Positions 5,834-29,194 of a stretch of DNA of 64,000 nt are shown here, one piece after another. The DNA is taken from NCBI GenBank assembly GCA_026014735.1, contig JAOZHT010000003.1, forward strand, positions 124,001 to 188,000. Direction: 5' to 3'. This DNA comes from Candidatus Bathyarchaeota archaeon. Its GTDB lineage: Archaea > Thermoproteota > Bathyarchaeia > Bathyarchaeales > Bathycorpusculaceae. A program made the position numbers and the translations under genes. Numbering within the stretch: the stretch's first letter is position 1; each line of letters begins with the position of its first letter. The notes beneath the pieces are model-generated. The model was not told where the DNA came from and made no database searches. It saw nothing but the letters and a program-made list of their open reading frames with translations.

Positions 5834-5955
5834 CTGGTTTATTGTTGCTGCTATTGCTTTATAAAACTGTCGTAAGTTGTCCCTTTTGACACCGTTTTAT
5901 CTACACTTGCTGACACTAGAGGCTGAAGCACTTGCTTCAAAGAGGAGAAAAAAAC

Positions 5956-8686: not shown

Positions 8687-9511
8687 CTACAGTGAGTTCC
8701 ACAGTTGCTCAAACGCGTTCTCAGCAAACGCAACTAAGCAGGGGTGATTAGTAATTACATATGGTGATTCCGCGATAGGTCTGTCAGGGTAGTAGCTGAA
8801 ACTCATGTTTTCGTGGTCAAAGAGTGCAAAGTTAACCATTTGGTTGCCAAGAACCGTTTTTATGGTTGTATTTTTATCGTGAGTTTTCAGTATCTCGTTG
8901 GGGATGGCTTGGTTTTGGTCAGGCAGCCCAATTATGAGTCTGTATTTTACGCCTCTGGCTACGGCGTTGTCGTGGTTATCTTGGCATTCGTTGGCAACAT
9001 GAAGGAACCTTGGTAGAAACGTCACTACGTCAACTTTCGATTTTGCGTTGTCATGCTGCTGTTTCATTTGGGCAAAAATCCTTTTTCTGCCCTCGATGAT
9101 ACTGATTTTGTAGTCCTTCTCGCTTTCCTGTTCTTTTTTAGCTTTGAATTCGCTTGAAAACTCCTTAAGGGTTCTGCGCATCTCTTTGACTTCGCAGTAT
9201 TTTCGGTCGATAAATGCCTGCAATCCCAGTTGAGGCGGCACCGCTGAGAACTTGATGGGGTTGCCTACTTCTTTATCTACTAAGCCGTTTTCTTGCAGCT
9301 CGTTTAGTGCTCTGTATATTCCGGTTCGGGGTAGGCTTGTTCGGGATGCAAGGAGGCGCGCGTCGGCTTTGCCGTTGATCACGAGGTTAAGGTATAGACT
9401 TGCCTGGATTCTAGTTAGGCCAATTTCGGTTAGGTATCGTACGCCGTCGTTTTTGGACCAATGTAGTGGAGTTACGTTTAGGAGATTTTCCCATTTTTGC
9501 AAAATCAACAC
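8687..9511 (-). CDS. TrmB-family transcriptional regulator, second copy
   Basis: About 274 residues. The N-terminal winged helix reads LTEIGLTRIQASLYLNLVINGKAD, then LASRTSLPRTGIYRALNELQENGLVDKE, matching the same positions in the regulator at 5021-5833. A helical linker (KEMRRTLKEFSSEFKAKKEQ) joins a C-terminal domain that resembles its partner around RIFAQMKQQHDNAKSKVDVV. The start is GTG at 9511; no ATG fits. The gene is divergent from the propeller gene at 9707, repeating the arrangement at 5.8 kb. It most likely regulates that gene. The ligand cannot be told from the sequence. Confidence 0.8.
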   Translation of the reverse strand: MLILQKWENLLNVTPLHWSKNDGVRYLTEIGLTRIQASLYLNLVINGKADARLLASRTSLPRTGIYRALNELQENGLVDKEVGNPIKFSAVPPQLGLQAFIDRKYCEVKEMRRTLKEFSSEFKAKKEQESEKDYKISIIEGRKRIFAQMKQQHDNAKSKVDVVTFLPRFLHVANECQDNHDNAVARGVKYRLIIGLPDQNQAIPNEILKTHDKNTTIKTVLGNQMVNFALFDHENMSFSYYPDRPIAESPYVITNHPCLVAFAENAFEQLWNSL

Positions 9512-13692: not shown

Positions 13693-13705
13693 GTCTGTTT
13701 TCTCT

Positions 13706-14041
13706 TTAAGGTTGCTTGAGGACTTGCAGTGCCTCGCTTCGAGAGCCCAAAATCTTGAAGATCTGTGTGAAGCCTGAAATCTCGAAGACCTCGCGGACAT
13801 AGGGTTTAAGCGATACCAAAAGGATTTGGCCGCCTGATCTCTGGAGGCTTTTAGCTGAGGACAAAAGAACCCTTAAGCCTGCGCTTGCAACATAATCGGT
13901 TTGGGAAAAGTCACAGATTACTTTTTTTGTCCCCGCCGCAATTAACTCTTTGAGTGCGGTTTCCACTTCGTTGGCAGTGTAGGCGTCAAATCTGGGCACC
14001 ATGACTGCTGTGGCTACGTCTCCTTCGGTCCTTAATTCCAT
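13706..14041 (-). CDS. STAS-domain anti-sigma factor antagonist-like protein
   Basis: 111 residues, full length for SpoIIAA/RsbV. The core DFSQTDYVASAGLRVLLSSAK carries the Ser of the SAG motif that RsbW-type kinases phosphorylate in bacteria. The unphosphorylated form binds the kinase or another partner. The gene lies 17 bases after the RsbW-like kinase gene. Archaea lack bacterial sigma factors, so the target of the switch must be something else. No known anti-sigma target lies next to it. Confidence 0.88.
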   Translation of the reverse strand: MELRTEGDVATAVMVPRFDAYTANEVETALKELIAAGTKKVICDFSQTDYVASAGLRVLLSSAKSLQRSGGQILLVSLKPYVREVFEISGFTQIFKILGSRSEALQVLKQP

Positions 14042-14058
14042 GTTTCCACTTCATGATT

Positions 14059-14478
14059 CTATTTTTTTATATACTTAGCGATTGTTAATAAATTCTTATC
14101 ATCGCGGCGCAGATAGCTTACTTCATCCATGAATTTTTTCATGAAAAATATGCCTAAGCCCCCTGCTTTTCGTTCGCTCAAACCGCTTTCTACATCGGGC
14201 TCCGGCAACGTAGTTGGGTCAAAGGGTCCACCCCAATCCGATATCTCCACGATGAATTTCGAATCTGTCAGCATACAGCCGACCACGATTTTTCCCTCCA
14301 TGCTTGAGTATGCATGTTCGATGATGTTTGTGCATGCCTCATCAACCGACAATTGCACCGCATGGACATCCCTTGGGTTATCTATGCTGTAGTAATGCAT
14401 CGTTTCCTCGATGAACTCGCCGATTCTAGCGAGGTTTTCCATTTTTCCCTCAACGGTAAGTTCAAACTTCTCTTTCAC
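14059..14478 (-). CDS. RsbW/SpoIIAB-like serine protein kinase (HATPase)
   Basis: 139 residues. The GHKL ATPase fold is visible: N-box QLSVDEACTNIIEHAY (residues ~42-57), G1 box EISDWGGPFDP, and G2 box KAGGLGIFFMKKFMDEV. In bacteria these kinases phosphorylate a STAS antagonist and sequester a sigma factor. Here the STAS gene follows by 17 bases and the matching phosphatase precedes by 35 bases, so the kinase-phosphatase-substrate triad is complete. ATP-binding residues look intact, so I expect an active kinase. Confidence 0.88.
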   Translation of the reverse strand: MKEKFELTVEGKMENLARIGEFIEETMHYYSIDNPRDVHAVQLSVDEACTNIIEHAYSSMEGKIVVGCMLTDSKFIVEISDWGGPFDPTTLPEPDVESGLSERKAGGLGIFFMKKFMDEVSYLRRDDKNLLTIAKYIKK

Positions 14479-14513
14479 CGCATGGTCCCCTTTTCCTTTT
14501 TACTTATGCTGCT

Positions 14514-16112
14514 CTAGGCCCCCTTGATGATTAGCAAGGTGATGTCATCGAACTGCGGCATATCTCCCGCGAAGGCTTTCACAGCAGATAAAATCTCTTC
14601 AAGAATCTTCTGAGAAGAAAGATGGGCGTTTTGGCGGATGATTTCTGTTAACCGCGTTTCACCAAACATTTCCTGCTGCGAATTAATTGATTCGGTGACG
14701 CCGTCGGTGAACATGACCACAACGTCGTCTTCCCCGATTTTTACTCTGCTGGATTTGTATTCCATGTTCTCTGCTGCGCCAAGGACGATTCCGGTCGGCG
14801 GTAGCCTCTCGACTGTTCCAGTCTGGCTTCGAAAAACCATGGGGGGGTTATGTCCGGCGTTGACGTAGGTTAAGGTTCGGTCTGTGTCGTTTAGTAAGCC
14901 GAAGAAGAGGGTTACGAACATTCCGGATTTTGAGTCCTGCGTGATGGTGTTGTTGGAGTTGAAGATGACTCTGGCGGGGTCATGGTGCCAGAGTGCATTA
15001 ACCCTGACGACAACTCTTGATAATGCCATGAAGAGGGCTGCTGGAACTCCCTTTCCCGAAACATCCGCAACAAGCAACCCATGCCTGCCCCCCTCAAGAG
15101 TCATCACCTCATAGGGGATCACATCAAAAAAGTCGCCTCCAACCTCTTTCGCCATGACGGTCCGGGCTGCAATATCGATCCCTGGAATCCGCGGAATCGC
15201 TTCAGGCAGGAAGCTTTTCTGGATTTCCGCGGCAATCTGGAGCTCAGCGTTTGAACGGGCAAGCCTCCCCTCCATTTCTCGGCGTTCAGTGATGTCCCGG
15301 ATGGTTTCTATGGCGCCGATGACTGCTCCGCTGGTCGGGTCATAGAGGGGCGTAGCTTTCGCCCATAGGTATGCGCCGCCTGGCCGAAAATCGGGGATAA
15401 ACACGTCAGCGACCAGTGTGTCTACATTGCGCTCCACGTTACTGTACCTTTTCTGCAACTCGGTTTCAGGCAGAAAAATCAGGTCCACAAGCATGGGGCG
15501 ACGCTCCTTATAGAAGGGCAGGGCGTACTCGTAGTTGGCTTTGCCGAGCATGGCGTCGGCGGGTATGCTGGTGAGCATTTCCATGGCGCTGTTCCACGCG
15601 ATAACCTTGCCCTCCAAGTTAATCACGAAGGTGGCGTCGGGGAGAAAGCTAAGGATGTCGGCGAGGCTGCGGCGTGACTGAACAATCTCTTGTTCCGCGC
15701 GTTTGCGGTCCGTTATGTCGCGGATGGTTTCTATTGAGCCGACGACGTCACCGCTGTTTGGGTCATAGAGGGGCGTAGCTTTAGCCCAGAGGTATGCGCC
15801 GCCTTCCCGGAAATTTGGGAGAAAAATCTCGACGATAAGCGTGTCGCCTAACCGTTCTACCGTGTCGTACTTGTGCTCTACTTCGGCTTGGGGCATAAAA
15901 ATCAGGTTTGCCAGCATGGGCCTGCGTTGCCCATAGAAGGGCATTGCATATTCGTAGTCTGATTTGCCCAGCATTTCGCTTCGGGGTATGCTGGTTAGCA
16001 TTTCCATGGCGCTGTTCCACATGATGACTTTGCCGTTTAAATCGATGACGAAGGTGGCGTCGGGTAAAAACTCGATTATGGCATCCCGGAACTGTTGGCC
16101 GTCTGCGTTCAT
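14514..16112 (-). CDS. PAS-PAS-SpoIIE serine phosphatase
   Basis: 532 residues. Two PAS domains (residues ~8-130 and ~145-270) are near copies of each other: both contain DATFVI.L.GKVI.WNSAMEMLTSIP and end YLWAKATPLYDP.SG.V.G.IETIRDIT. A short helix (LARSNAELQIAAEIQKSFLPE) leads to a PP2C-type SpoIIE domain with VADVSGKGVPAALFMA and MFTDGVTES, holding the metal-binding Asp residues. RsbU/RsbP phosphatases dephosphorylate the STAS antagonist in response to a signal sensed by their N-terminal part. It is the first gene of the operon at 12466-16112. The PAS ligand is unknown. The clear internal duplication suggests a recent PAS copying event. Confidence 0.92.
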   Translation of the reverse strand: MNADGQQFRDAIIEFLPDATFVIDLNGKVIMWNSAMEMLTSIPRSEMLGKSDYEYAMPFYGQRRPMLANLIFMPQAEVEHKYDTVERLGDTLIVEIFLPNFREGGAYLWAKATPLYDPNSGDVVGSIETIRDITDRKRAEQEIVQSRRSLADILSFLPDATFVINLEGKVIAWNSAMEMLTSIPADAMLGKANYEYALPFYKERRPMLVDLIFLPETELQKRYSNVERNVDTLVADVFIPDFRPGGAYLWAKATPLYDPTSGAVIGAIETIRDITERREMEGRLARSNAELQIAAEIQKSFLPEAIPRIPGIDIAARTVMAKEVGGDFFDVIPYEVMTLEGGRHGLLVADVSGKGVPAALFMALSRVVVRVNALWHHDPARVIFNSNNTITQDSKSGMFVTLFFGLLNDTDRTLTYVNAGHNPPMVFRSQTGTVERLPPTGIVLGAAENMEYKSSRVKIGEDDVVVMFTDGVTESINSQQEMFGETRLTEIIRQNAHLSSQKILEEILSAVKAFAGDMPQFDDITLLIIKGA

Positions 16113-16385: not shown

Positions 16386-17348
16386 CTAATTCAGCTTAAA
16401 AGAGAAAACAGCCCTCTCTGAATCCTCACAGACTTCCACAGCAGGCGCAAGACCCCTTTCCAATAGCCCGAGCCACAGGTGGCATGCGCAGATGCCTACA
16501 TCCACGTTAGGATGCTCCCACTTAAAGTGCCTGTACCCCACGGGCATGGCGACTGTCACCGTTTTATAGCCCTCATCAAAGCCGAAACGCCACATCTGCG
16601 AGTTACCTGCTGAAGGCGCTTTTCTAGCGAGGTCAAGAGCATAACTGAGGTCCTCTGGAAGGTTCGCTGCATCCCTGGGGTTTTCAAGCAGCTCTTTGAT
16701 TTCTTTTCTGTTGAAGCTATACATTTTCTTGGTCATTCTATCCATCAGCCGTAGACCACCCGACTCGTAGTAGCCCAAGGGGGAAATGCAGATGGCGCGA
16801 ATGCCCTCGGTGGTGCCGGTTGAGTAGCCGTAGCCTTTTGGCGCCTCATTTAACTGGCTGGCGTTTTGCAGGTGAGGCATTAGCTTTTCGAGTTCCGCCA
16901 GCTTGTAATGTCCATACCAGCAGGTCGAGACGCCGAGGCTTTGAGCCCTAAGAATCAGCAGTTCACCTATGAACCCGGTTTTCGCTATTGAAACAACATC
17001 TGTTTCAGACAGGAACGCCATGTTATCTGGGGGTGACTTCAACACGGTGTAAAGTTCCTTTGTTGGTTTAGCTTTGAAAAAACGAATCTCAGTTGCGCAA
17101 TCAAACGGCGCCTTAACAGTCTTGGCGTACTCGGAAAGTGTCGCCAACGTTTCAGGTTTTAGGGCTTCTATTTTGTAGCTTCTTGCGGACCTGCGATTGT
17201 TTATGGTTTCGCTAAGATTATAGGGTAAGTTAAATGTAGACACGGTGCTTGCCAACTTCCTTTTATCGTAAATCAAGGTAGCTACAGATAAGGTTTTGTT
17301 GAAATCAGCGTTGAGAGAGGATTTGGAGTTGGGACGGCAATTGAACAT
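16386..17348 (-). CDS. Nitroreductase-fold protein (TM1586-like)
   Basis: 320 residues. After about 45 N-terminal residues the sequence LSETINNRRSARSYKIEALKPE marks the FMN-binding nitroreductase fold. The arrangement, with a double-length fold, matches the 'putative TM nitroreductase' family (TM1586-like): a second half with DLARKAPSAGNSQMWRFGF and VDVGICACHLWLG. Such proteins bind FMN and reduce unknown substrates with NAD(P)H. A further motif LGVSTCWYGHY is typical. The start is an ATG at 17348, though the extra N-terminus could mean the real start lies further inside. It is isolated, preceded by the PIN relic. Confidence 0.72.
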   Translation of the reverse strand: MFNCRPNSKSSLNADFNKTLSVATLIYDKRKLASTVSTFNLPYNLSETINNRRSARSYKIEALKPETLATLSEYAKTVKAPFDCATEIRFFKAKPTKELYTVLKSPPDNMAFLSETDVVSIAKTGFIGELLILRAQSLGVSTCWYGHYKLAELEKLMPHLQNASQLNEAPKGYGYSTGTTEGIRAICISPLGYYESGGLRLMDRMTKKMYSFNRKEIKELLENPRDAANLPEDLSYALDLARKAPSAGNSQMWRFGFDEGYKTVTVAMPVGYRHFKWEHPNVDVGICACHLWLGLLERGLAPAVEVCEDSERAVFSFKLN

Positions 17349-17379: not shown

Positions 17380-17620
17380 TTATTTGTTGACGACGTCGCT
17401 GCTTGAGAGCGTTTTTACACCTAAATCTTCTGCGGTTTTAGCGAGTTTTGCGTCGTCGGAAACTAGGTTTTGCTGTTTTCTTTTGCCTCCCCTAGGTAGG
17501 CTGAGTCATAGACGGTTATTATTACGAAAATCATTAATGCGTGACGTTAAGTTCAGCGGCTGCTAACGCCTGTGGGCTCAAAGGGGCTATGCTTATATCT
17601 TCGTATTGGTTACATAAAAG
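17380..17620 (-). pseudogene. Decayed PIN-domain (VapC-like) gene
   Basis: Minus-strand translation gives pieces of one PIN ribonuclease in three frames: DISIAPLSPQALAAAELNV (about 17545-17600), then after a frame change ITVYDSAYLGEAKENSK, then after another NLVSDDAKLAKTAEDLGVK ending LSSSDVVNK at the stop 17380-17382. LTVYD..YL.LA and LVSDD.KLAK are the conserved C-terminal half of VapC-type toxins. Two frameshifts and the missing N-terminus make it inactive. It overlaps the longest possible start of the PAS gene, which argues for the GTG start of that gene at 17641. No antitoxin remnant was seen. Confidence 0.62.
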
Positions 17621-17640
17621 TGCTGTTTTTGCAGCTGAAA

Positions 17641-19605
17641 GTGAACGATTTGTCTGCCCTTTATTTTAGTAAACAAAATAGCGAGAACAAGTACAAACAA
17701 CTTTTCGAAGAGGCAATAGACGCGATCATAATCATTGGTTCAGAATCAGACGTCATCCTTGAATGCAACCAAGCTGCAGCGGAACTATTTGAAAGAACAA
17801 AAGACGAATTGATTGGGGAACACGAAGCCATATTGTATCCATTCGAAGAAACTGCCAATAGCTTAACAACACTGTTCAGAGAAAAAAAAGCGCACTCACC
17901 AAATTTAAAAAAATATGAAATCCAAACAGAAACCAAAGTCATCACTAAAAATGAACAAATAAAAGATGTGTCCATTCACGCCTATTCAATGGACATCGAA
18001 GGCAAAGAAATAATCTACGCCTCATTTAGAGATGTCACTCAGCAAAAACAGGCAGAAGCAGCGCTTAGATATTCGGCGGAACAGTTCAGCATTTTAGCTG
18101 AAACTTGGCCGAATATGATCGTTATCATCCAGGATGGAAAAGTTGCATATCTAAACCAAGAAACCGTAAGAGTCACTGGCTACTCTAAAGAGGAGTTTTA
18201 TTCACCTGATTTTGATTTGACCAAGCTATTATCCCCTGAATTTTTACCTGAGTTTATGGAGGAATTTGATAAAAGAATCAAAGGGTTAAGTTTGGAGCCT
18301 TTAGAGTTTACATTAATAACAAAAAAGGGGTCAACTATTGATGCAATATGGAGCGCCAGACCCATCACTTTTAATGGAAAACTTGGACTTGTAGGCGTCG
18401 CAACAGACATTACAGAACGTAAAAAAAATGAACAACTAATCATAACACAAAAGAATCAACTAGAAGGGATATTCGCATCCAGTCCAGACGCTATAACTGT
18501 AACCGATTTATCGGGAAATATTTTACACTGCAACCAAGCTGCGGTTTCCCTGATTGGATTAAATTCAAAAGAAGAAGCAATCGGAAAAAATATCCGCCAA
18601 CTGATTTCTCCAAAAGACCAACAAAAAGCCTATATGGATTTAGCAAAAGTTATGGAAACTGGCGTCCCAGTAAAAAATTTAGAACTGGTTTTTTTAACTA
18701 AGGATGGAAAAGAACTGCCAGTCGAGTTATCGGGAGCAGCCATAAAGGATGCTTCAGGAAAACCAGTAAATTTAGTTACAATAACTCACGACATTTCTGA
18801 ACGTAAAGAAATGCAGCAAAAACTCCAGCAGGAAAGAGATATTCTCAATGCCGTTACAAGAAGCATCAACGCAGGATTTGTGATGGTGAGCCGAAACTAC
18901 GAGATTGTCTGGACTAACGAATTTATAAAAGGCCTTTTTGGATCCGCTGAGGGGAAGTTATGTTACCAAGCACTGCATGGTCACAAAAGTAAAAGCATAT
19001 GCTCCGATTATAGCGTAAGAAAAGTTTTTGAAGATAACGCAAATGAGGCATCCCATGAAATTCAAATAACAGGCGCTGAAGGAAAAAAGGTTTGGATGAA
19101 AATAGCCGCTGCACCCATAAAGGATGCAGAGGGCCAAGTGGTTGCTGCAGCAGAGCTTGTTGTGGATATAACTGACATTAGGCAAGCTGAAGAACAGATT
19201 CGGCTGCTAAGCAGTGTTGTAGAACAAGAGGTGGATGGCATAGCGGTTTCAGACAACCAAGGGCGAATCCTCTTTTTAAACAAAAGCTGGATAACAATGC
19301 ATGAACTAGCCGACGGCGCTGAGGATCTAACCGGTGAATCAATCATGCGGTTCTATGACCCAGACCAACTCAAAGCCATCGGCAGTAAAACCGACAACGA
19401 TGGAGTTTTCAGGGGACGACTTAAGCAAATAACCAAAGATGGAACAGGCTTCACTGCCTTAGCCACTCTAAGCCCCCTGCGAGACAAGGAAGGACAAATA
19501 GTCGGAACCATACACACAGCAAAGAAGCTAACCGAGATAGTCCGCGAAATAAGAAATGTAGGATCCCATTCTTATAGAGGGGATTCAGCGGTGGATGGGG
19601 TGTAA
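17641..19605 (+). CDS. Five-PAS-domain sensor protein without output domain
   Basis: About 654 residues from GTG at 17641. Five PAS repeats follow each other (about residues 20-135, 140-260, 265-385, 390-510, 515-635). PAS-type ends are visible as FRDVTQQK, ATDITERKK, THDISERKE and VVDITDIRQ. No histidine kinase, GGDEF, DNA-binding or methyl-accepting domain follows; the protein stops after the fifth PAS. The fourth PAS has CYQALHGHKSKSIC, resembling Cys-rich PAS domains that hold a cofactor, but this is unproven. The next gene begins 1 base after the stop, so the protein most likely signals by contact with the KaiC-like and GTPase partners. An in-frame start at 17572 is possible but lies within the PIN relic. 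Confidence 0.85.
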   Translation: MNDLSALYFSKQNSENKYKQLFEEAIDAIIIIGSESDVILECNQAAAELFERTKDELIGEHEAILYPFEETANSLTTLFREKKAHSPNLKKYEIQTETKVITKNEQIKDVSIHAYSMDIEGKEIIYASFRDVTQQKQAEAALRYSAEQFSILAETWPNMIVIIQDGKVAYLNQETVRVTGYSKEEFYSPDFDLTKLLSPEFLPEFMEEFDKRIKGLSLEPLEFTLITKKGSTIDAIWSARPITFNGKLGLVGVATDITERKKNEQLIITQKNQLEGIFASSPDAITVTDLSGNILHCNQAAVSLIGLNSKEEAIGKNIRQLISPKDQQKAYMDLAKVMETGVPVKNLELVFLTKDGKELPVELSGAAIKDASGKPVNLVTITHDISERKEMQQKLQQERDILNAVTRSINAGFVMVSRNYEIVWTNEFIKGLFGSAEGKLCYQALHGHKSKSICSDYSVRKVFEDNANEASHEIQITGAEGKKVWMKIAAAPIKDAEGQVVAAAELVVDITDIRQAEEQIRLLSSVVEQEVDGIAVSDNQGRILFLNKSWITMHELADGAEDLTGESIMRFYDPDQLKAIGSKTDNDGVFRGRLKQITKDGTGFTALATLSPLRDKEGQIVGTIHTAKKLTEIVREIRNVGSHSYRGDSAVDGV

Positions 19606-19606
19606 A

Positions 19607-20332
19607 ATGTCTGCAGGGCTTTTTCCTTCAGGTATACCTGCATTGGATGTTGCCCTAAAGGGTGGTTTCGCTAGGCCATCAAACCTGCTGGTTATGGGTG
19701 ACCCTTGGTCATCAAAAAGAGAAGTCGGATTGACTATGCTTAGTGCGGGGTTACGTAATAATGAGGCGGCAATATGCATCTCGGCTACAAAAACTGCTGA
19801 AGAAATCAGGGCACGTTGGCTCGAGTGTGGATTAACCCCGACTTTTGAGCAGGAAGGCAGAGTGAAATTCGTCGATTGCTATTCAAAAATGATTGGAGTT
19901 AATGCTTCTGATACACCGTCGATAAAGCGAGTGCCAAGCATAATAGAATACACCAAGCTCACGGTTGCAGTGAATGAATGGTGTTCAGGCTTTTTTTTTA
20001 AAAATACCGTTGTAAGGGTACTGTTTGATTCGCTTTCTACCCTCTTAATCTACAGTAGTCTGCAAACGGTTATGCGTTTTTTGCATATTTTCTTAGGGCA
20101 GCTTAGGAAACAAAACGTCTTGGGTTTTCTAATAGTTGAGGAAGGTGCACATGACTTGTTGACGGTTAACCAACTGGAAAGTTTCTCGAACGGTGCAATA
20201 GTGATGGAAGCAAATTCTCTTCGGTGCGACGGATTCTTCGGGTACCCAAGCATGTCCGTGCCGTTTTCTTTTTCACCCGCCGAATCCGTCACCCAAAACC
20301 TTCGCAGAAATGGCAGGTTGGAGGCGCCTTGA
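19607..20332 (+). CDS. KaiC/RAD55-like RecA-fold protein with degenerate Walker A
   Basis: About 241 residues. The start LFPSGIPALDVALKGGFARPSNLLVMGDPW is the entry of KaiC-type RecA domains (G...LD..L.GG...G...L..G), but the P-loop reads GDPWSSKRE instead of GxxGxGKT. A Walker B-like strand VRVLFDSLSTLL remains, as do ISATKTAEEIRARW and FLIVEEGAHD. It is therefore probably a pseudo-ATPase that serves as a binding platform. It follows the PAS gene by 1 base and precedes the GTPase fusion by 1 base, which indicates translational coupling. ATG at 19607 has GGGGTG ahead; the alternative ATG at 19595 overlaps the PAS gene. Confidence 0.75.
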   Translation: MSAGLFPSGIPALDVALKGGFARPSNLLVMGDPWSSKREVGLTMLSAGLRNNEAAICISATKTAEEIRARWLECGLTPTFEQEGRVKFVDCYSKMIGVNASDTPSIKRVPSIIEYTKLTVAVNEWCSGFFFKNTVVRVLFDSLSTLLIYSSLQTVMRFLHIFLGQLRKQNVLGFLIVEEGAHDLLTVNQLESFSNGAIVMEANSLRCDGFFGYPSMSVPFSFSPAESVTQNLRRNGRLEAP

Positions 20333-20333
20333 A

Positions 20334-21536
20334 ATGGTAGAAGCCTACATGTCTAACGAAAAAACGCAGACGGGCATAAATATTGTCGACCAACTTCTCG
20401 ATGGAGGAATACCCCGCGGTTCATCGGTTCTAATCAGGACAAATCCCCTCTCTGACCCATCCACTATAGCTATACAGCTCCTTAGAAATCGGTTAAGGAG
20501 TGGCGACATAGGCGTTTACTTTGTCAGCAACAAATCCGCCAATGCAGTTATTGATGAGTCAGTATCGTTGGGCATGAGCCTAGCAGAGTATAAACAGCAA
20601 AATCGTCTTTTCTTCATCGACGGGTACTCTGCGCTTTTTGGGCTCAATAGTGAGGAAGCATACGCCGTCGACAACAGTTACGACTGCAATTCAGTGTTTA
20701 GTGTGGTAACAAAAGCGCTCTATGAATGCGGCCGAAAAGGCAAAGTATTCTTCATCTACGACTCATTAAACACTTCAATCGATGAATTCGGAGGCGCAAT
20801 TTTAGGCGAAGTGGATAATTGGAAAAAAATAGCGGTAACCTTCAACGCAATTCTATGCTTCCTTTATACCGAGTGGAACTATGAAAACGCTGTCTCTCAA
20901 ACAGTAAGTAGCCTTTACCCCACCATCATTGACCTTATGGCACTGGAAAGAATAGTGGGCAATCAAGCTATTACCGTGAGCAAAAAAGGGGGGGTCCCCG
21001 TGAAAGAAAAAATAATTCCGATAAAGAGGTCGGTGACCGGGGAAATAAAAGGTTACATACCAAAAATCCTGGTGACAGGACCATTTCATGCTGGGAAAAC
21101 AACCATTGTGCATGCGCTTTCAACTCGCGCTGTCAGTGTGCAGCGGTTCGGGACAACTGTTGCGTTAGATTTCGGGCATGTAGACTATAAAGGGTTCACT
21201 TTAGATTTGTTCGGAACTGTTGGGCAACCAAGATTTGACCCCATACTAAAACTTCTTGGAGGAGAAGCATTGGGCGCTATACTAGTAGTTGATAGCACTA
21301 AACCGGAAGAATTTCCCAGAGCCAAAGAAATGATGTTAAAAGCAAAAGTCAACGGCTTGCCATATGTGGTGGCAGCAAATAAACAGGATTTGCCTAAAGC
21401 CATGTCTGCTTCCGAAATTAAAATTAAAATGAATATTCCCAATGATGTTGAAGTGATCGGTACTGTTGGAAACGACAAAGCAAGCAGTATAGGCGTTTTA
21501 GACAGTCTAATTGAAAAAATTTTATGCGGAGACTAG
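20334..21536 (+). CDS. KaiC-like pseudo-ATPase fused to a COG2229-type small GTPase
   Basis: About 400 residues. Residues ~10-225 repeat the KaiC-like fold of the previous gene (TGINIVDQLLDGGIPRGSSVL), again with a broken P-loop (RTNPLSDPST) and a Walker B-like FFIYDSLNT. After a linker (IIPIKRSVTGEIKGY), residues ~245-400 form a Ras-like GTPase: G1 GPFHAGKTT, G3 DLFGTVGQPRF, G4 NKQDLP, plus GALGAILVVDSTKPEEF. These are features of the COG2229 GTPases found in Streptomyces conservons (CvnD) and related to MglA and Arf. The Roadblock gene follows by 4 bases, the usual partner of such GTPases. Start ATG at 20334 has GGAGG ten bases ahead; ATG at 20349 is an alternative. Confidence 0.85.
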   Translation: MVEAYMSNEKTQTGINIVDQLLDGGIPRGSSVLIRTNPLSDPSTIAIQLLRNRLRSGDIGVYFVSNKSANAVIDESVSLGMSLAEYKQQNRLFFIDGYSALFGLNSEEAYAVDNSYDCNSVFSVVTKALYECGRKGKVFFIYDSLNTSIDEFGGAILGEVDNWKKIAVTFNAILCFLYTEWNYENAVSQTVSSLYPTIIDLMALERIVGNQAITVSKKGGVPVKEKIIPIKRSVTGEIKGYIPKILVTGPFHAGKTTIVHALSTRAVSVQRFGTTVALDFGHVDYKGFTLDLFGTVGQPRFDPILKLLGGEALGAILVVDSTKPEEFPRAKEMMLKAKVNGLPYVVAANKQDLPKAMSASEIKIKMNIPNDVEVIGTVGNDKASSIGVLDSLIEKILCGD

Positions 21537-21540
21537 CACT

Positions 21541-21906
21541 ATGTCGACTAAGGCTTTGATTGATGAAATTTTGAAGGAACTTAAGAGTGTCGGAGGAATT
21601 GAATCCTCAGCCGTCGTTACAAGAGACGGCTTACTCGTTGCTGCAGACACATCAGTTGATGTGGATGCTGAAACATTCGCCGCCATGAGTGCAAGTATGG
21701 CGGGGTCAGCTGAAACGGCGATAACTGAAGTTAACGGGGGAACTGCTGCTCGAATTATTGTTGAGGCTGCAAACTCCAAATTAATCACTCTTGGGGCTGG
21801 CTCAAAAGTCCTGCTTGTGGCGTTGACAAAACAGCAGGTTCCTCTTGGTTTAGTTTTGATAAAGCTTGGCGATGCAGCCAGAAGAATAAGCAGCATTGTA
21901 ACATAG
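21541..21906 (+). CDS. Roadblock/LC7 domain protein
   Basis: 121 residues from the ATG at 21541, behind GGAG. The whole protein is one Roadblock/LC7 (MglB-like) domain: LIDEILKELKSVGGIESSAVVTRDG, AETFAAMSASMAGSAETAI, and a last strand VLLVALTKQQVPLGLVLIKL. In bacteria MglB is the GTPase-activating partner of MglA; in Streptomyces CvnB is its conservon counterpart. The gene sits 4 bases behind the GTPase fusion, so a GTPase/regulator complex is expected. The longer frame beginning at 21511 overlaps the fusion gene and lacks support. Confidence 0.9.
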   Translation: MSTKALIDEILKELKSVGGIESSAVVTRDGLLVAADTSVDVDAETFAAMSASMAGSAETAITEVNGGTAARIIVEAANSKLITLGAGSKVLLVALTKQQVPLGLVLIKLGDAARRISSIVT

Positions 21907-21949
21907 CCTGCGGTCAGTAATTATCCGTGACAGGTTAGGGTAGAGCAAC

Positions 21950-22657
21950 GTGCGGTTTTTCAAAAGAAAAAAAGATACAAGTAAAACCGATCAGGCAGCC
22001 ATAAAAAAGTGGGTAACGGAGTACGAGGATGAGGAAACAAAAAAGGCTGAGAAAGAAAGAGCCTTAAAGGCATTTAATAAAAAGTTTAAGCTATACATCA
22101 TCTTAAGTGTCCTTTACGGCTTAGTTTTTGTAAACTACATCGACAATACTATCACGTCTGGAGGGTTTGCCTACAGCGGCTACCACCTGTGGCTCACCAT
22201 AATATATTTTTTTCCGTTCATAATCTTGACGATTACTTTCCCGAGGAACTGGCAGTTAACCATTGGGCTGGGGCTTCTAGCTTCGCTGATGAACGATGTT
22301 TTCTACGGCATGGTTCGCAGCCTCATGGGGTCCCAAATTGATCTTGTCTGGTATTACAAGCTTTGGCTTATACCCAGCGGCACACTCCTATTCAATCTAA
22401 ACCTTGGCGTAGTAACCATCCCCGTCTACTCATGGCTGATGGCACTTACCATCTACGCCCGAATCGCAATTGTCATCGTACTGCTGTGGCGTTGGAAACA
22501 ACAAGCAAAAGTCAGATACTTAAGTCAACCAATGCATGAAAAGAAAAACCTGATTTCAAACTGGTGGAAAAAACAACTGAAAAATAGAGTTACAAAGCCT
22601 TCAACCCCAAAGATAACGGGTTTGCGTCTGCCAAGGACAGGCAATAGCATTCTATGA
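21950..22657 (+). CDS. Unknown membrane protein at the end of the GTPase operon
   Basis: 235 residues starting with GTG at 21950, 43 bases after the Roadblock gene. A very basic N-terminus (RFFKRKKDTSKTDQAAIKK) and a charged helix (DEETKKAEKERALKAFNKKFK) precede about four transmembrane helices (near residues 46-66, 80-98, 103-125 and 160-190), and a basic cytoplasmic tail follows. I recognise no family. Its place suggests a membrane anchor or effector for the PAS/GTPase/Roadblock complex, but this is inference from position only. Confidence 0.65.
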   Translation: MRFFKRKKDTSKTDQAAIKKWVTEYEDEETKKAEKERALKAFNKKFKLYIILSVLYGLVFVNYIDNTITSGGFAYSGYHLWLTIIYFFPFIILTITFPRNWQLTIGLGLLASLMNDVFYGMVRSLMGSQIDLVWYYKLWLIPSGTLLFNLNLGVVTIPVYSWLMALTIYARIAIVIVLLWRWKQQAKVRYLSQPMHEKKNLISNWWKKQLKNRVTKPSTPKITGLRLPRTGNSIL

Positions 22658-23008
22658 AACGCATGAAAACCTGATGTCACGGAAGTTGTTAATTGGAGCT
22701 GGGGATGGGAATTGACCCCTCTTCATCTTTGGGGTTTCACTCGCAAACTCCTCTTATCTTTGAGCGCATTTGGCAAGGAGCACTACAAACCGATTAACTG
22801 CCCCCTATTGTGGCAAATAAACGGTAACGTGAAAGAACTTTGTAACAGCTTGCTTCACCGTTCCACTAATCTAGATATTTCCAGAGCTATACTGCTGAAT
22901 TATGTTTTTGTTGTGTCATAATGTGCTTGTCGCTAACTTTGGGGTAACATATTTGCCGCTGTTTCAATCATATGAATAGCTAGCAAACATCCAGATGTAT
23001 GTTAAGAA
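22658..23008. other. 351 bases without a gene; carries a tRNA-Cys fragment
   Basis: Apart from the 25-bp tRNA-Cys 3' copy at 22691-22715, no gene is recognised. An open frame at 22712-22921 encodes 69 residues with no family; near 22797-22815 removing one C would give a CPYCG zinc-finger motif, hinting at decayed transposase or recombinase sequence, which is not enough to call a pseudogene. Confidence 0.5.
22691..22715 (-). repeat. tRNA-Cys 3'-end copy (att site, distal end of island)
   Basis: A 25-bp sequence identical and in the same orientation to 28664-28688, which covers the T-loop, the 3' acceptor strand, CCA and three following bases of tRNA-Cys. A direct repeat of a tRNA 3' end is the classic scar of integration by a tyrosine recombinase. 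The island it bounds is 22716-28663. Confidence 0.8.
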
Positions 23009-23887
23009 TTACCAGCCGTATCGTTTTATGCCCTCTAAAAGCACTTCTTTGAGTTTTTGTCCTGTCATGTAGGAGTCCATTATTGAACGCCCTGTCACAA
23101 AGGGATAGTCCACAACAACTGATACTTCCTGGCCGACATTACCGTGGAAGCATCCATCGGGGCCAACGGCGAGTTCTAAAATAAGTTGCAATGGAATGGT
23201 TGCGAATCTTGTTTCGAAGTATTTATTGTGCTCCCGATCCCAAAAGGCAGAGCCTTCTTGGTAATCATAGGCTAGTGGATGACCCGTCACATGTTTCCCC
23301 CAAATAATGGGCTTGTTTTTGTCATCTGAGTAACTAGTGAAGGCCAGGCAGGTTACACCGTAACAGTCGGCGGCGATAGGTTTGTTCAATTCGTAGAAGC
23401 AACGGACTAGGTCTTTTACACGAGGATTGTTTGCCACATCTATTAATGTACCACTGCCTCCAACAAGTAATATACCGTCATATTTATCATCGATTTCATG
23501 TTTTAGCATTGCTAATTTCTTGAAATACTCTTCACGTTCACGTAAGTAGCTTGAAGAGCTAAGATACGGCGATTGTGGGAACCAATTTGTCAGGTTCTTA
23601 GGGTTCTGGAGTAGTGGATTCTCAGGAGACTCCAGAAAAGAAACCTTCTTGGCGACCTCTGCTGAAACAACTGCTCTTCCAAGTGGGGGGTCTATGAAAG
23701 TGGGATCCATACTTGCGGGCAACGCGATTGGTCGTTGTCCTGTCGGCGTAACGAAATCGAAGGTATAGCCAGCACGCTCAAGTTCTTCAAGTGGACCGAG
23801 TAATTCCTCTCCCCAATAACCATATTCAGATAGCACTATCAACATTTTTTTCGTGTCACTCACCTCCAGCGTTGGCATTTTTGACAT
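23009..23887 (-). CDS. DJ-1/PfpI family protein (Hsp31-like), class I amidotransferase fold
   Basis: 292 residues. The fold starts at KKMLIVLSEYGYWGEELLGPLEELERAGYTFDFVTPTG; the nucleophile elbow is AADCYGVTCLAF with a Cys after a buried Asp, preceded by YDGILLVGGSGTL. The long insertion between strands is typical of Hsp31-like members, which act as glyoxalase, deglycase or chaperone. It follows the second DJ-1 gene at 23856-24503, overlapping it by 32 bases if it starts at 23887; an alternative ATG at 23845 would start 10 bases after that gene's stop and lies behind GGAGGTG. Both DJ-1 genes lie behind the AGE-family gene in one operon inside the tRNA-Cys island. Confidence 0.82.
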   Translation of the reverse strand: MSKMPTLEVSDTKKMLIVLSEYGYWGEELLGPLEELERAGYTFDFVTPTGQRPIALPASMDPTFIDPPLGRAVVSAEVAKKVSFLESPENPLLQNPKNLTNWFPQSPYLSSSSYLREREEYFKKLAMLKHEIDDKYDGILLVGGSGTLIDVANNPRVKDLVRCFYELNKPIAADCYGVTCLAFTSYSDDKNKPIIWGKHVTGHPLAYDYQEGSAFWDREHNKYFETRFATIPLQLILELAVGPDGCFHGNVGQEVSVVVDYPFVTGRSIMDSYMTGQKLKEVLLEGIKRYGW

Positions 23888-24503
23888 CCAAATCTTTTAT
23901 TGCCTGTGCAATTGCTTGAATAAACAGATGAACTTCTGCTTTTGAGCGGCCGGTTACAAGGTCGCCGTCAACTACAACGCCCCTTTCGTTGGCAGTATAG
24001 ATTGCGCCTGCATTGCAGATGTCTGAGCGGACAACTTCATGACAGATTATTCGGCGTCCTTTTAGGTATTGGGGGTTGGGTGTTAGAATCCATAAACCAT
24101 GGCAGAGCGCTCCCTTGATTATCTTTGGGTTTTGCATGGCTCGTGCAAAAAATTTGACTGCAGGTGCATCCGAGGGTTCTTCAGGGTATTGGTAGTAACG
24201 TAAGCGGACACTTGTGTAATTTGCAGCCATTATTATGGCGGCATAATCCTCCAATCTGATTTTGTCTAAGTCCAAATTTACTTCTATTGTTTCGGCTTGG
24301 CGGGGATTTCCATATTCATCTAAGCCATCGGGGTCACTCACAAATTTCACTGATGGGTTACCCCAAAGTCTTGAAAGGAGGTGTACCTCTGCGCCTAACG
24401 CTTCGAAGTTTTGTTTGTATGCAGCAATTTCTTCTGGAATATAGAGATTCTCCAATAGGACTCCTATTTTTTTACCTATTAGTATTCTCTCGATTTGTTT
24501 CAT
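23856..24503 (-). CDS. DJ-1/PfpI family protein
   Basis: About 215 residues from the ATG at 24503. The domain begins LIGKKIGVLLENLYIPEEIAAYKQNFEALGAEVHLLS; the active-site turn is IKGALCHGLWILT, and the segment VDGDLVTGRSKAEVHLFIQAI closes the fold as in PfpI. Members are stress proteases, glyoxalases or deglycases. The gene overlaps the end of the AGE-family gene by 32 bases and the start of the next DJ-1 gene, so the three are likely co-transcribed. AAAGGAG sits directly before the ATG with almost no spacing. Two DJ-1 proteins in a row suggest a heteromer or a two-step repair of sugar-derived carbonyl damage; that is inference. Confidence 0.8.
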   Translation of the reverse strand: MKQIERILIGKKIGVLLENLYIPEEIAAYKQNFEALGAEVHLLSRLWGNPSVKFVSDPDGLDEYGNPRQAETIEVNLDLDKIRLEDYAAIIMAANYTSVRLRYYQYPEEPSDAPAVKFFARAMQNPKIIKGALCHGLWILTPNPQYLKGRRIICHEVVRSDICNAGAIYTANERGVVVDGDLVTGRSKAEVHLFIQAIAQAIKDLDVKNANAGGE

Positions 24504-26508
24504 CTCCTTTATGATTGGCTTGAGACCCCGAGGTCGGTGGCTGACATCGCCAAATACTATCAAATTCTGCAACAACGGTGGTTCCTAGTTCATCGGGGCT
24601 TAGATCAACCTGGAAATCTTTCGGTAAGTCTCCGCTTCTCCGCAAGCCCCCAACCGTTACGTCTTTTAATCGCACTACACAAGGCTGGAAAAAATCGGGC
24701 AAAACATTAACTGATTGCTGACCGCAACTCTTGTCAGGTTTAAAATAAAGTACAAAGTCAGCCTCTTCTATCGGTTTAATAAATGACCGAATGTAAATAT
24801 GGGCTAAAAAATTCAATTCGAATGCATGATAACCTGAGATAGCATGCCCTGCTTTAACACCGTAACTTCCTCTAGTAATTGGAATGCCATCCTCATTAAC
24901 TCGAAAGATGATGCCGTTGTAATCATGATCAAGAAAGTAAAGGTTCCAGAAAGCCATCATGTAACGCGCAATTTTTCTATAATTTTCCTTTCGAGTGGAC
25001 CCGTAAAGAATTAGGTATGCCAAGATGCCCTGCTCTTGCTGCCAAAAGTCTTTTGTGCTGCTCCAGGCGAACTCTATCGGCATTCCATTGGATGGATTAC
25101 GTTCAACCGCGTCGAAACAACCCCCACGGATCTGATCAATGCCAAGGACTGACATGTCGTCCGCGATTTTTTTAGCGATTTGCATGTAATTGTCCCCTTT
25201 AGTTCGCCATTTTTCATTACCTTCCTGCTGAGCCAAAAGATACATGTAATTTGCAGCGCGGGTCATGTTCCAAGCGATTTTGAGGTTATGTCCAATTATG
25301 CCGCGGTTTTGTTGCCAACCGTGCTCGTGGTCAGGTATCCAAGTAGCGAGAAACCGTTCATTTACGTATTTAGAGGCCTGGTCGGGGAAATGGGCACAAA
25401 TTAGGTCACTAGTATGCTCAAGCATCCATTTGCATTTTACAAGAAAATTTGAGAGGTCATCTGTATTTCGCCCTCTTGGAAGCGGCTCTAGCGCGAGAAT
25501 TAGATTGATGAGGTAAGCCGGTATATGATCGCCGATTGAGTTCCAGTTTTTTCGGGCACTATTTTGCCCAAGTTTTTTTGAACTGGAGCACATATTTGTG
25601 CAATCGATATGAGAGAAATAACCATCTGCTTTGACATTAGCATTTACATCTTTGTCTAAGGCAGCTATTGTGCCATCGAGGTAAAAGTCGTTGAAAGCCC
25701 TTATCGTTTTGCGAATATCCTCGAGTACCTGCCAATCTAGAGTGATACGATAGTATTGGGTTAGACCTGCTAAGGCATAGATTTGCTCATACAGGGGTAT
25801 TGTGTCGATATCTTCGGGGTTTTGTGAACTCTCATAAAGTTGAGTAATGTAGCGACGATGAACACGACCAAACGCCCAAAAGCAATATCGTCCATCGTGA
25901 CTTAAATGACGAAAAGCTTCTCTCTGGAACTGAACACCTGCCCGCGCGCCAGTTAAGTAACGCTCGCAACCAGTCAGCATATACGCTGAGCATAACCCAT
26001 AGATGAGCCGTGAAAGAGTAGCGGTTTCTTGTGTGTTGTCATCTGTTGGCATCCCGGTGATGTTTAGGTTACTTCTGTAGAGTTTCGCAAAGTCCGCGGA
26101 TGTATAATCTCGATTATCCCCAAAAAGTTGATCAAGCCATTGGTCCGCAAGGCGCGAAATCTGGGTAATCCACCAATGGGTGTCTTCAAAAGCGAAACGT
26201 GAAGACTGGGAATGCATTAAGTAAATATTTCGAGCGTCATATCGGGTTTCGCCTTTATGTTCAGAGTAAACGCCCTCAGCAACTATGAGGGACTGGGGGA
26301 AAATGAACTTGCGTATGTTAAATGAGCGTTCGTCTTCTTTGTCGTTGATTTTTTCGGGGTCTGGCACTCGGTCTGCATCGACGTTATCTAGGTTCTTAAT
26401 AACTTGAAAAGAAGTAGTATTTCCCACATGTACTTTTAGTTCTTGACCGCTTAGAAGGGAAATGACGAAGCTGGAATTCGCGGGGTCAATAGATGATACA
26501 TCCCCCAT
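24472..26508 (-). CDS. AGE-family (N-acylglucosamine/cellobiose 2-epimerase-like) alpha/alpha-barrel protein
   Basis: About 678 residues from the ATG at 26508 (a TTG at 26556 is an alternative). The N-terminal ~100 residues look like a small beta domain (SGQELKVHVGNTTSFQV...RVPDPE). The middle is an (alpha/alpha)6 barrel with HEHGWQQNRGIIGHNLKIAWN, the AGE signature whose His residues catalyse epimerisation in sugar 2-epimerases, and a later FWQQEQGILAYLILYG. The barrel also occurs in related isomerases. The C-terminal ~100 residues look like a separate beta domain. The longer size than the usual ~400 residues makes the exact activity uncertain. The gene is divergent from the GH13 gene, and both lie in the tRNA-Cys island, which points to sugar metabolism. 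Confidence 0.72.
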   Translation of the reverse strand: MGDVSSIDPANSSFVISLLSGQELKVHVGNTTSFQVIKNLDNVDADRVPDPEKINDKEDERSFNIRKFIFPQSLIVAEGVYSEHKGETRYDARNIYLMHSQSSRFAFEDTHWWITQISRLADQWLDQLFGDNRDYTSADFAKLYRSNLNITGMPTDDNTQETATLSRLIYGLCSAYMLTGCERYLTGARAGVQFQREAFRHLSHDGRYCFWAFGRVHRRYITQLYESSQNPEDIDTIPLYEQIYALAGLTQYYRITLDWQVLEDIRKTIRAFNDFYLDGTIAALDKDVNANVKADGYFSHIDCTNMCSSSKKLGQNSARKNWNSIGDHIPAYLINLILALEPLPRGRNTDDLSNFLVKCKWMLEHTSDLICAHFPDQASKYVNERFLATWIPDHEHGWQQNRGIIGHNLKIAWNMTRAANYMYLLAQQEGNEKWRTKGDNYMQIAKKIADDMSVLGIDQIRGGCFDAVERNPSNGMPIEFAWSSTKDFWQQEQGILAYLILYGSTRKENYRKIARYMMAFWNLYFLDHDYNGIIFRVNEDGIPITRGSYGVKAGHAISGYHAFELNFLAHIYIRSFIKPIEEADFVLYFKPDKSCGQQSVNVLPDFFQPCVVRLKDVTVGGLRRSGDLPKDFQVDLSPDELGTTVVAEFDSIWRCQPPTSGSQANHKGDETNRENTNR

Positions 26509-26655
26509 GACAGTGAGATTACGAAAAAAAAAGTCTAAAGACACAAATGACTCCAATTATAAGGTTGGGGCTGGAAAGTTATAAAGACTAGTGAGCACAC
26601 TAAGAAGCAACTAATTTTTATCTATTCCTCTGCCGATATTAATATGGTGTAATTT

Positions 26656-28560
26656 TTGCGAACAATAATTGACGGTGAACCGCCAACTAGCCTCTCTAGT
26701 GTTGATTTGCGACCCCCCGGGAGGGTCTTTTCAAGTCCGCCAGTTTGGCGTGATCAAATTGTCTATTTTCTTCTCCCAGACCGCTTTAATGACACTCAGC
26801 CAAGACCCCCTTTTGACCCATCAAATCCCCAGCAATTCAAAGCAGACAAAAGAAAATGGATGGCAGATGGAAATACGTTTAGAGGGGGGAAACTAAAGGG
26901 AATTACTGACAAACTGGATTACCTTAAAAATTTAGGCGTAACGGCTCTTTGGATTGGTCCGGTGTACAAGCAAAGATGTGACACCGAGACTTATCATGGT
27001 TATGCAATCCAAAACTTTCTGGACGTCGATCCACGCTTTGGAAATCGCCAAGACTTACGAGACTTAGTTGACCAGGCGCATGACCGGGGAATGTATGTAA
27101 TACTGGATATTATCTACAATCATACTGGCAATAATTGGTTCTATGCTTTTCAGCCTCCCGAAGACAAATTTAGGGCTATCCCTTACAGGTTTTCACCGCC
27201 CTATGATTTTGGAAAATGGAGATCCAAAATTACCGAGGAAATTGACAAAATCGATGATAAAGAAGATGGTGTTTGGCCTACTGAATTCCAGAACCCAAAT
27301 TACTATACTAGAGCAGGGCAAATAAGTAACTGGAATCCTCAAGAATGGGAAAATCCTTTTGATGATAACACGGAATTTAGGAGAGGCGACTTCTATGACT
27401 TTAAAGACCTTGATCATGCATATAATGACCATGAAGTTTTAAGTGCACTAATACGGGTATACGAATATTGGATAGGGACCTTTGACGTTGATGGTTTCCG
27501 TATTGACACTGTTAAACATACCACTATCTGTACAACAAGGGCTTTCTGTGGAGCTATTCGAGAATATGCTGAGTCGATAGGCAAAGACAATTTTCTGCTC
27601 TTCGGCGAAGTAACTGGGGGAGCCAAAATGATGCTTAGATATCTTCCTAACACAGTTGATGGATATCTTGATATTTTTAAGAGAAACCTTGATGCAACAC
27701 TGGATCTTGGCGACGCCGAGAGGCGGCTGGCTAATTTAGTTCTAGGGTTGGGGCGTCCAAAAGAAGATTATTTCGACCAATTTGGTGGGGTAGACGAACT
27801 AGGAAGTCACCGTCTAACTGGGCAGTATCACATTTCGCTTCTTGACGAAGCTGATATGGTTGGACGACCAAAATATCGATTCTACGCGTTGACGAACGCA
27901 AGGGACAAAGATAAGTATCTTCAGGTTGCGCATGCTGTTGGAGTACAACTTACGACGTTGGGTATTCCATGTATTTATTATGGAACTGAGCAAGCGTTCA
28001 ATGGTTCGCCCGAATTACACGATCAAACGGTTGAGCCGCTGGTAAACGGGAGTGTTCAGTATCAAGACCGCTATATTCGGGAGTGCATGTTCGGAGGAAC
28101 ATTCGGAGCCTATGAAACGGCAGGTTGTCACTTCTTTAACGAAAATCATCCAACCTACATCAGAATTGCAGCTATATCAAAATTGCGAAATCGAAAGGAT
28201 TCCATTGGTGCATCTCTTAGAAGAGGGCGGCAATACCTGCGAGAAATTGCAGTTAATCCGAATGATAAGTTCCAATATCCTCAACCAGGAGAAATTGTCG
28301 CGTGGTCAAGGATACTTTTTAATAAAGATGTAGTGGTCGTATTAAATAGCAATGGCTTGGAACATCACAGTGCATGGGTCCTTGTTGATTCTCGGCTGCA
28401 TCCCATAAGCGAGAAGATGATTTTTCTGTATAAAGGTGATTGGTCGGATGCTCAACTTAAAGGTCCACCCCCGGAACAAACAGTTAACGTAGAATATTTG
28501 AATGGAATCACAGCATTCAATATCGATTTGCCGCCTGCAGGGATGGCAATCCTGAGCTAA
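26656..28560 (+). CDS. GH13 alpha-amylase family enzyme
   Basis: 634 residues; TTG at 26656 is the best available start. Catalytic region I reads DIIYNHTG, region II GFRIDTVKH (nucleophile Asp), and region III FGEV (acid/base Glu). Region IV, normally xxNHD, reads LLDEAD, so the Asp remains but the conserved His is Ala. ITDKLDYLKNLGVTALWIGPV is the usual beta-2 signature. A C-terminal beta domain follows the barrel. No signal peptide is visible, so the enzyme is cytoplasmic and may act on glycogen or maltodextrins; exact specificity cannot be given. It ends 104 bases before the repeat that marks the island end. Confidence 0.88.
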   Translation: MRTIIDGEPPTSLSSVDLRPPGRVFSSPPVWRDQIVYFLLPDRFNDTQPRPPFDPSNPQQFKADKRKWMADGNTFRGGKLKGITDKLDYLKNLGVTALWIGPVYKQRCDTETYHGYAIQNFLDVDPRFGNRQDLRDLVDQAHDRGMYVILDIIYNHTGNNWFYAFQPPEDKFRAIPYRFSPPYDFGKWRSKITEEIDKIDDKEDGVWPTEFQNPNYYTRAGQISNWNPQEWENPFDDNTEFRRGDFYDFKDLDHAYNDHEVLSALIRVYEYWIGTFDVDGFRIDTVKHTTICTTRAFCGAIREYAESIGKDNFLLFGEVTGGAKMMLRYLPNTVDGYLDIFKRNLDATLDLGDAERRLANLVLGLGRPKEDYFDQFGGVDELGSHRLTGQYHISLLDEADMVGRPKYRFYALTNARDKDKYLQVAHAVGVQLTTLGIPCIYYGTEQAFNGSPELHDQTVEPLVNGSVQYQDRYIRECMFGGTFGAYETAGCHFFNENHPTYIRIAAISKLRNRKDSIGASLRRGRQYLREIAVNPNDKFQYPQPGEIVAWSRILFNKDVVVVLNSNGLEHHSAWVLVDSRLHPISEKMIFLYKGDWSDAQLKGPPPEQTVNVEYLNGITAFNIDLPPAGMAILS

Positions 28561-28582
28561 AAATTTATCATTAAAGGTTTGA

Positions 28583-28598
28583 CCACCTTATCCGGTGG
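28583..28598 (+). terminator. Hairpin after the GH13 gene
   Basis: CCACC-TTATCC-GGTGG forms a short stem-loop 22 bases after the stop codon. It is not followed by a strong T run, so it may be a terminator or merely an mRNA end structure. Confidence 0.35.
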
Positions 28599-28663
28599 GT
28601 AATAATAATCTCCCTAGATCATGGAATACTGCGCAACAATACCATTTCCGAATTTATACGCGG

Positions 28664-28688
28664 AATTGGAGCTGGGGATGGGAATTGA
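28664..28688 (-). repeat. tRNA-proximal att copy of the island
   Basis: 25 bp identical to 22691-22715, spanning from the T-loop of tRNA-Cys through CCA and three bases beyond. It marks the tRNA-proximal end of the island. Confidence 0.8.
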
Positions 28689-28742
28689 ACCCATATATAG
28701 CAGCTCTGCAGGCTACCGCCTGAACCATTCGGCCACCCCAGC
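28667..28742 (-). tRNA. tRNA-Cys (GCA)
   Basis: Minus strand, 5' at 28742. Acceptor GCTGGGG pairs with CCCCAGC; D-arm GCC...GGC; anticodon stem GTAGC/GCTGC with loop CTGCAGA, anticodon GCA; T-arm ATGGG-TTCAATT-CCCAT. The discriminator base is T and CCA is encoded. No intron is seen. The 3' end is repeated at 22691-22715, so this gene is the integration target of the neighbouring island and remains intact. Confidence 0.93.
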
Positions 28743-28831: not shown

Positions 28832-29194
28832 CTACTTTTTGAAGGCTAACCCCGAAAAAACCGCCACAAGCTTCTCGTCTTTACGCACCATCACGTTGTA
28901 GAGCCCCGTGGTTTTGCCGTCACTGACCCGCGTTGCCTCCGCCGTAAGCACGTCGCCTTCCACGGTGGGTTTAAGATAGTTTATGCTCACCTGCAACGCA
29001 ACCGCCACGTTGTCGCCGAAGTTGCAGGCATGAGCAAACGCGTAGTCCGCCAACGAAAAAATGGCGCCGCCATGGGTGAAGCCATGGGCGTTTGTATGTT
29101 TTTTTCCAACGGTCATGGCTGTTTTGCAGTAGCCGTCTTTGGATTCGAGGACTTTGATGCCTAATGCTTCAGCGTAGCTGTCGGTTCCCTTCAT
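28832..29194 (-). CDS. PaaI-like hotdog thioesterase
   Basis: 120 residues, full length for the PaaI group. The active-site region is NAHGFTHGGAIFSLADYAFAHACN, and INYLKPTVEGDVLTAEATRVSDGKTTGLYNVMV follows. PaaI hydrolyses phenylacetyl-CoA and similar aryl-CoA esters and guards against CoA trapping. The gene overlaps the end of livM by 26 bases and is the last gene of the liv/paaK/ior operon. The context of PaaK and indolepyruvate oxidoreductase supports an aryl-CoA substrate. Confidence 0.85.
   Translation of the reverse strand: MKGTDSYAEALGIKVLESKDGYCKTAMTVGKKHTNAHGFTHGGAIFSLADYAFAHACNFGDNVAVALQVSINYLKPTVEGDVLTAEATRVSDGKTTGLYNVMVRKDEKLVAVFSGLAFKK

Follow-up and report, generated by a model that had tools for sequence, protein, structure and literature searches.

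The 5.95-kb segment at positions 22716-28663 of the window, that is, of the whole 64,000-nt stretch of a Candidatus Bathyarchaeota archaeon contig analysed here, is likely (with a probability of roughly 0.7) the remnant of an integrative element that used a tRNA-Cys gene as its target and later lost its integrase-bearing end (Table 1). The segment is probably a degraded tRNA-integrated island of a known kind, with interdomain cargo, lying in an integration hotspot absent from the literature to which we compared it.

Table 1. Features of the tRNA-Cys island and its surroundings (positions in the window)
Feature	Position	Strand	Basis or remark
Far-side block: PAS/phosphatase-type regulator plus three genes	12466-16112	-	locus comparison
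Distal attachment-site copy	22691-22715	-	exact 25-bp repeat; outside any tRNA gene
Non-coding right end of the island	22716-23008		no large ORF, no integrase relic
Right-hand att arm (AAAGATAAGAGGAGTTTGCGAGTGAAACCCC...)	22720-22761	-	alignment and null test, pattern search
DJ-1/PfpI family protein 1	23009-23887	-	Pfam PF17124/PF01965; 55% identity to Nostoc pNsp_a protein
DJ-1/PfpI family protein 2	23856-24503	-	Pfam PF01965; 53-57% identity to Nostoc plasmid proteins
AGE-family (N-acylglucosamine 2-epimerase-like) protein, 694 aa	24472-26556	-	Pfam PF07221
GH13 alpha-amylase-family protein, 634 aa, divergent from AGE	26656-28560	+	Pfam PF00128
tRNA-proximal repeat copy (tRNA-Cys 3' end plus 3 nt)	28664-28688	-	25-bp repeat
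Intact tRNA-Cys (GCA) with encoded CCA, the insertion target	28667-28742	-	ARAGORN
PaaI-type thioesterase, conserved 5'-side neighbour of tRNA-Cys in many genus members	28832-29194	-	

The segment is bounded by two copies of a direct repeat that are, as the original prediction had claimed, the same in sequence and orientation; they match exactly over 25 bp and remain alike at 28 of 29 bases when extended. The repeat comprises the final 22 nt of tRNA-Cys, including the encoded CCA, plus 3 nt past the gene. Its second copy had been proposed to be the 3' end of an intact tRNA-Cys gene and the first to stand alone, and the ARAGORN call and the position of the distal copy agree with both, so that an intact tRNA marks one end of the segment and a direct repeat of its 3' end the other. 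A search of the window with up to three mismatches allowed returned 2 matches, with 0.00 expected from 100 dinucleotide shuffles. Moreover, tRNA-Cys and its flanks found two places alone in the whole 2.9-Mb genome, both of them repeat copies, which argues against a dispersed tRNA fragment and disposes, for this genome, of the widespread fragment family that had been named beforehand as a possible objection. The encoded CCA end itself differs among tRNA-Cys loci of the genus: the discriminator is followed by CTT or CTA in genes with a directly adjoining integrase and by CCA in several integrase-less loci, and one relative (G009) combines a tRNA-Cys with CTT and a distal copy with CCA.

The host is a Bathyarchaeia archaeon close to Bathycorpusculum. 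Comparison with other genomes, including Bathyarchaeia MAGs of which many are called Candidatus Bathycorpusculum, revealed that this tRNA-Cys is an integration hotspot in Bathyarchaeia, where two integrase families, att arms of several types and stacks of decayed copies occur. In the tRNA-Cys loci compared, which came from the genus and from G032 and G035, 3'-end fragments of the gene (at least 19 of 24 nt matching) lay downstream on the same strand in 11 cases and upstream or on the other strand in none, as counted over 263 kb of downstream and 69 kb of upstream DNA and with an opposite-strand control spanning all of it. Tyrosine recombinases are encoded directly at the tRNA-Cys 3' end in many relatives and fall into two sequence clusters, namely c3 (~382-417 aa when whole, convergent with tRNA-Cys; G013, G022, G032, G011, G019, G026, G028 and, on a fragment, G023) and c5 (~404 aa, in the same direction as tRNA-Cys; G010, G020, G023, G027 and G015). 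The att-bounded elements bearing c3 measure ~21.8 kb in G013 and ~35.7 kb in G032, and truncated integrase ends occur at the att site in G005, G002, G012 and one G007 copy. Three decayed tRNA-Cys copies in a row in G007 and two in G015 point to layered insertions; at two such loci (L080 of G007 and L044 of G015) the decayed 3' fragments are ~1.5-2.3 kb apart, with one to few genes between them.

Segments without a recognised integrase, as judged from their larger ORFs and from the initial 1.3 kb past each att site, are bounded by att sites in G021 (1.7 kb), G009 (2.7 kb), G005 (4.1 and 0.8 kb), G003 (6.4 kb), G007 (2.0, 2.3 and 1.7 kb), G015 (1.5 and 1.8 kb) and G035 (0.8 kb). Their cargo is varied and includes NosD-like, DNA methylase, transglutaminase and ketopantoate reductase genes. 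Besides, a PIN-domain gene following a small gene, a toxin-antitoxin-like pair, adjoins a 45-49 nt tRNA-Cys fragment in two relatives (L065:7929-8351, and L069 on G022:C123) and is perhaps the conserved end of another element type.

The sequence just inside the distal copy links the island to the c3-bearing elements. Arm groups inside distal copies were sorted by eye. The island arm, AAAGATAAGAGGAGTT-TGCGAGTGAAA, aligned with that of the G013 element at 25 of 27 bases with one gap, a score reached by none of 3000 random window stretches, and 2 of 3000 did as well against the G005 arm. The arms of G022 and G023 have a shorter motif in common, GTGAAATC, located at a similar distance; with 13 and 34 of 3000 random stretches as good, respectively, each of these two matches is by itself only suggestive, and the arm of another group, that of G009, scores comparably (36 of 3000). 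A combined arm and core pattern, written after the arms had been seen, occurred at 7 places in 121 genomes, every one of this genus, while its reversed control yielded 0. Among the relatives with this right arm, G013 keeps an intact c3 integrase, G023 has a c3 gene after its copy, and the G005 island retains a 22-codon C-terminal c3 stub at tRNA-Cys, which evidences integrase loss in a relative. The simplest reading of these three cases is that the island arrived as a c3-type element and that loss of the integrase end followed. It has the right-hand arm inside the distal core and lacks a c3 gene at the tRNA-proximal end, and since neither a c3-type arm nor an integrase relic was found at that end, the loss is one that we infer.

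Indeed, neither ORFs nor Pfam revealed an integrase or a relic of one between the repeats, and tblastn with c3 and c5 integrases matched the tRNA itself or noise, in line with the claim that the island has no integrase; we therefore file it as a remnant and not as an autonomous element. The whole genome yielded three matches to integrase families, of which two just exceed the family cut-off and the third falls short of it; all three are on contigs other than that of the window. This indicates, as had been anticipated, that the island is fixed or depends on help in trans from an incoming element. An SSV-type element with a split integrase gene was considered and discarded, as there are no integrase pieces at either end and c3 is whole beside the tRNA in relatives.

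Composition and gene distribution both set the island apart. Its tetranucleotide distance lies at the 98th percentile of 51 same-size pieces of its own genome, and its GC content, for which a check had been proposed, is 43.3% as compared with a genome-piece mean of 50.2% and ordinary values in the right flank (51.7%) and the far-left core (51.2%). The AGE-family gene was found in no other genome among 32 of the genus, 398 of a Thermoproteota phylum sample and 257 of the class, and no relative carried the same four genes next to tRNA-Cys without the repeat, an arrangement that would have spoken against the original prediction. GH13 gave weak local matches in the genus and, at E 1e-30, just one broken fragment in the 398-genome sample (G364), a ~135-residue relic near a contig end where tRNA-Cys was not found. 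The block formed by AGE and the two DJ-1 genes has the same gene order and strand, with 52-55% identity, as a cluster on plasmid pNsp_a of Nostoc sp. ATCC 53789, which is conjugative according to MOB-suite. The AGE protein is 52% identical over 95% of its length to the Nostoc plasmid protein, the next best plasmid match reaching 38%, and the GH13 protein matches a Nostoc HK-01 plasmid protein in two pieces at 49-56% identity. On pNsp_a the next genes of the cluster encode a thiamine-pyrophosphate protein and an EthD protein, and GH13 sits on other plasmids in Nostoc. An AGE gene unique among the Thermoproteota sampled, together with the shared gene order, suggests that the cargo is probably of bacterial origin, with a presumed bacterial donor. 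Because its bacterial relatives were sought among plasmid records, this comparison supports the label bacterial, with Nostoc simply the nearest source seen.

The original prediction placed two DJ-1 genes, an AGE-family gene and a GH13 gene between the repeats, and Pfam and the open frames confirm all four. DJ-1/PfpI protein 1 keeps the nucleophile-elbow Cys in a CYG motif; the ORF of protein 2 opens at 24575, with a likely start at 24503, and retains a CHG motif. The enzyme activities are predicted ones. Related clusters on Streptomyces and cyanobacterial plasmids adjoin GlgX, maltokinase or malQ genes, an association that suggests alpha-glucan metabolism, and the cargo is presumably a divergent unit that handles alpha-glucans or sugars, possibly with a role in carbonyl detoxification. 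A literature search on the AGE/DJ-1/GlgX cluster returned nothing useful.

The surroundings of the gene are asymmetric, as its 5' side, with the PaaI thioesterase, is constant in many genomes, unlike the 3' side. The far-side block is likewise found downstream of tRNA-Cys in G025, in G007 and, in part, in G016, at 2.2 kb from the tRNA in G025 and ~12.8 kb in G007, as compared with ~12.6 kb here. Between this block and the distal copy, an operon at 17572-22657 encodes a PAS-domain protein, a KaiC-like protein, a KaiC-like/Arf-type GTPase fusion (408 aa), a Roadblock/LC7 protein and a membrane protein. Among relatives it occurs in G011 alone, on another contig (C15), and is 73-85% identical there (83% for the GTPase). 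This DNA has a low GC content (42.7%), yet its tetranucleotide usage is ordinary (75th percentile), as might be expected of older or native sequence. This composition, together with the GTPase gene in one relative only, makes it harder to place the left boundary of foreign DNA than the right one.

An empty site, in which tRNA-Cys would directly adjoin the sequence preceding 22691, was not found cleanly in any relative. In G025, 11 nt of weak similarity follow tRNA-Cys, and 30 of 3000 random stretches are as good. The approach through the left-flank operon was rejected, its only copy among the relatives being that on contig C15 of G011. At two contig ends of G011 the genes follow the arrangement of one G032 element; if the contigs do join there, the operon would lie beyond a tRNA-Cys element in G011 too, but no att fragment was found.

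Same-orientation fragments downstream of the gene, integrases at the tRNA, the shared arm and the abrupt change in composition together support the proposed insertion by a tyrosine recombinase into the tRNA-Cys 3' end. Recombination of the tRNA 3' end (attB) with a matching sequence of the element (attP) would have restored a complete tRNA gene at one junction, with the 25-bp copy remaining at the opposite end of the insertion. The element would have belonged to the c3-integrase family, or used its att arm, with c3 tRNA-proximal as in G013, and loss of the integrase-bearing end would leave the island fixed unless another element supplied an integrase in trans. The short repeat, just 25 bp, and the missing integrase might instead be taken to mean that tRNA-Cys was partly duplicated or rearranged to give the distal copy, with no site-specific recombination involved, but the 11/0/0 orientation bias over many genomes, the integrases at the site and the shared arm make this hardly credible. 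Scarcely better are the odds of an assembly chimera, with bacterial-looking cargo wrongly attached to an archaeal contig through a short repeat: although the draft genome consists of 10 contigs and the cargo comes with a sharp composition change, the segment is internal to a 427-kb contig (C3), the repeat is only 25 bp long, the end of the segment coincides precisely with a site of biological meaning, and its right arm is of the type found in archaeal elements.

A different history, rather unlikely in our view, is that the island never had an integrase and was a cargo cassette with an att site, inserted in trans by a co-resident tRNA-Cys element. The small att-bounded segments recurring at tRNA-Cys with varied cargo agree with it, and such integrase-less islands in several relatives keep mobilisation in trans conceivable; however, the truncated integrase ends in G005, G002, G012 and a G007 copy are to be expected if genes were lost after integration, decay is seen in the copies of G007 and G015, and the host now has neither integrase family nearby. 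The truncated integrases at several tRNA-Cys sites thus favour remnants over cassettes moved in trans. A broader and quite doubtful extension would regard the tRNA-Cys of the genus as a dock at which resident integrases serially capture, in trans, small integrase-less modules made of one or a few cargo genes and a tRNA-derived att site; if true, such a system would be integron-like but based on a tRNA gene, and able to import bacterial genes. Under the preferred reading, a remnant of an integrated element, the island illustrates one route by which bacterial-type metabolic genes may have reached an archaeal chromosome, and the arms and integrases described here would allow the recombination to be tested directly in vitro.

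Tycheposons are tRNA-associated cargo elements of marine bacteria; they resemble the present locus in their tRNA docking site and layered cargo islands, and differ in belonging to another domain of life. Within archaea, tRNA-integrated elements inserted by tyrosine recombinases have been reviewed, and such elements can integrate in tandem at a single locus (PMC8371274). The island shares with them an intact tRNA, a same-orientation partial copy at the far end and foreign cargo in between. Unlike PYG1 of Pyrococcus yayanosii, a 21.4-kb element integrated in tRNA-Gln with a 44-bp repeat (PMC9897764), it is 6 kb long, has a 25-bp repeat and no integrase, and occupies tRNA-Cys in Bathyarchaeia. 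The 47-kb provirus described in a Bathy-6 genome (PMC11697101) and the Bathyarchaeia viruses (PMC10848311) concern the same archaeal class and integrase-bearing integrated elements, whereas the island has no virus genes. A tRNA-Cys hotspot is not described in the integrase, tRNA-gene and island statements of the former source or in the available portion of the latter.

Elsewhere in the window, a nitroreductase-family protein (PF14512) is encoded at 16386-17348, unmatched in the tRNA-Cys loci of relatives examined. Two related large repeat proteins (5932-8589 and 9707-12358), secreted-looking as judged by eye, each adjoin a small related regulator-like gene (5021-5833 and 8687-9511), and relatives of these repeat proteins are encoded downstream of tRNA-Cys in G009, G018 and G022. 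Beyond the genomes compared, c3 integrase relatives with 40-56% identity are present on 8 IMG/VR contigs (L145-L152). These were rejected as tRNA-Cys elements, no tRNA-Cys att site being found in the contig DNA examined, and some of them adjoin other tRNA-like sequences; in L147 the neighbour is a tRNA-Ser gene, which suggests that the c3 family targets several tRNAs.
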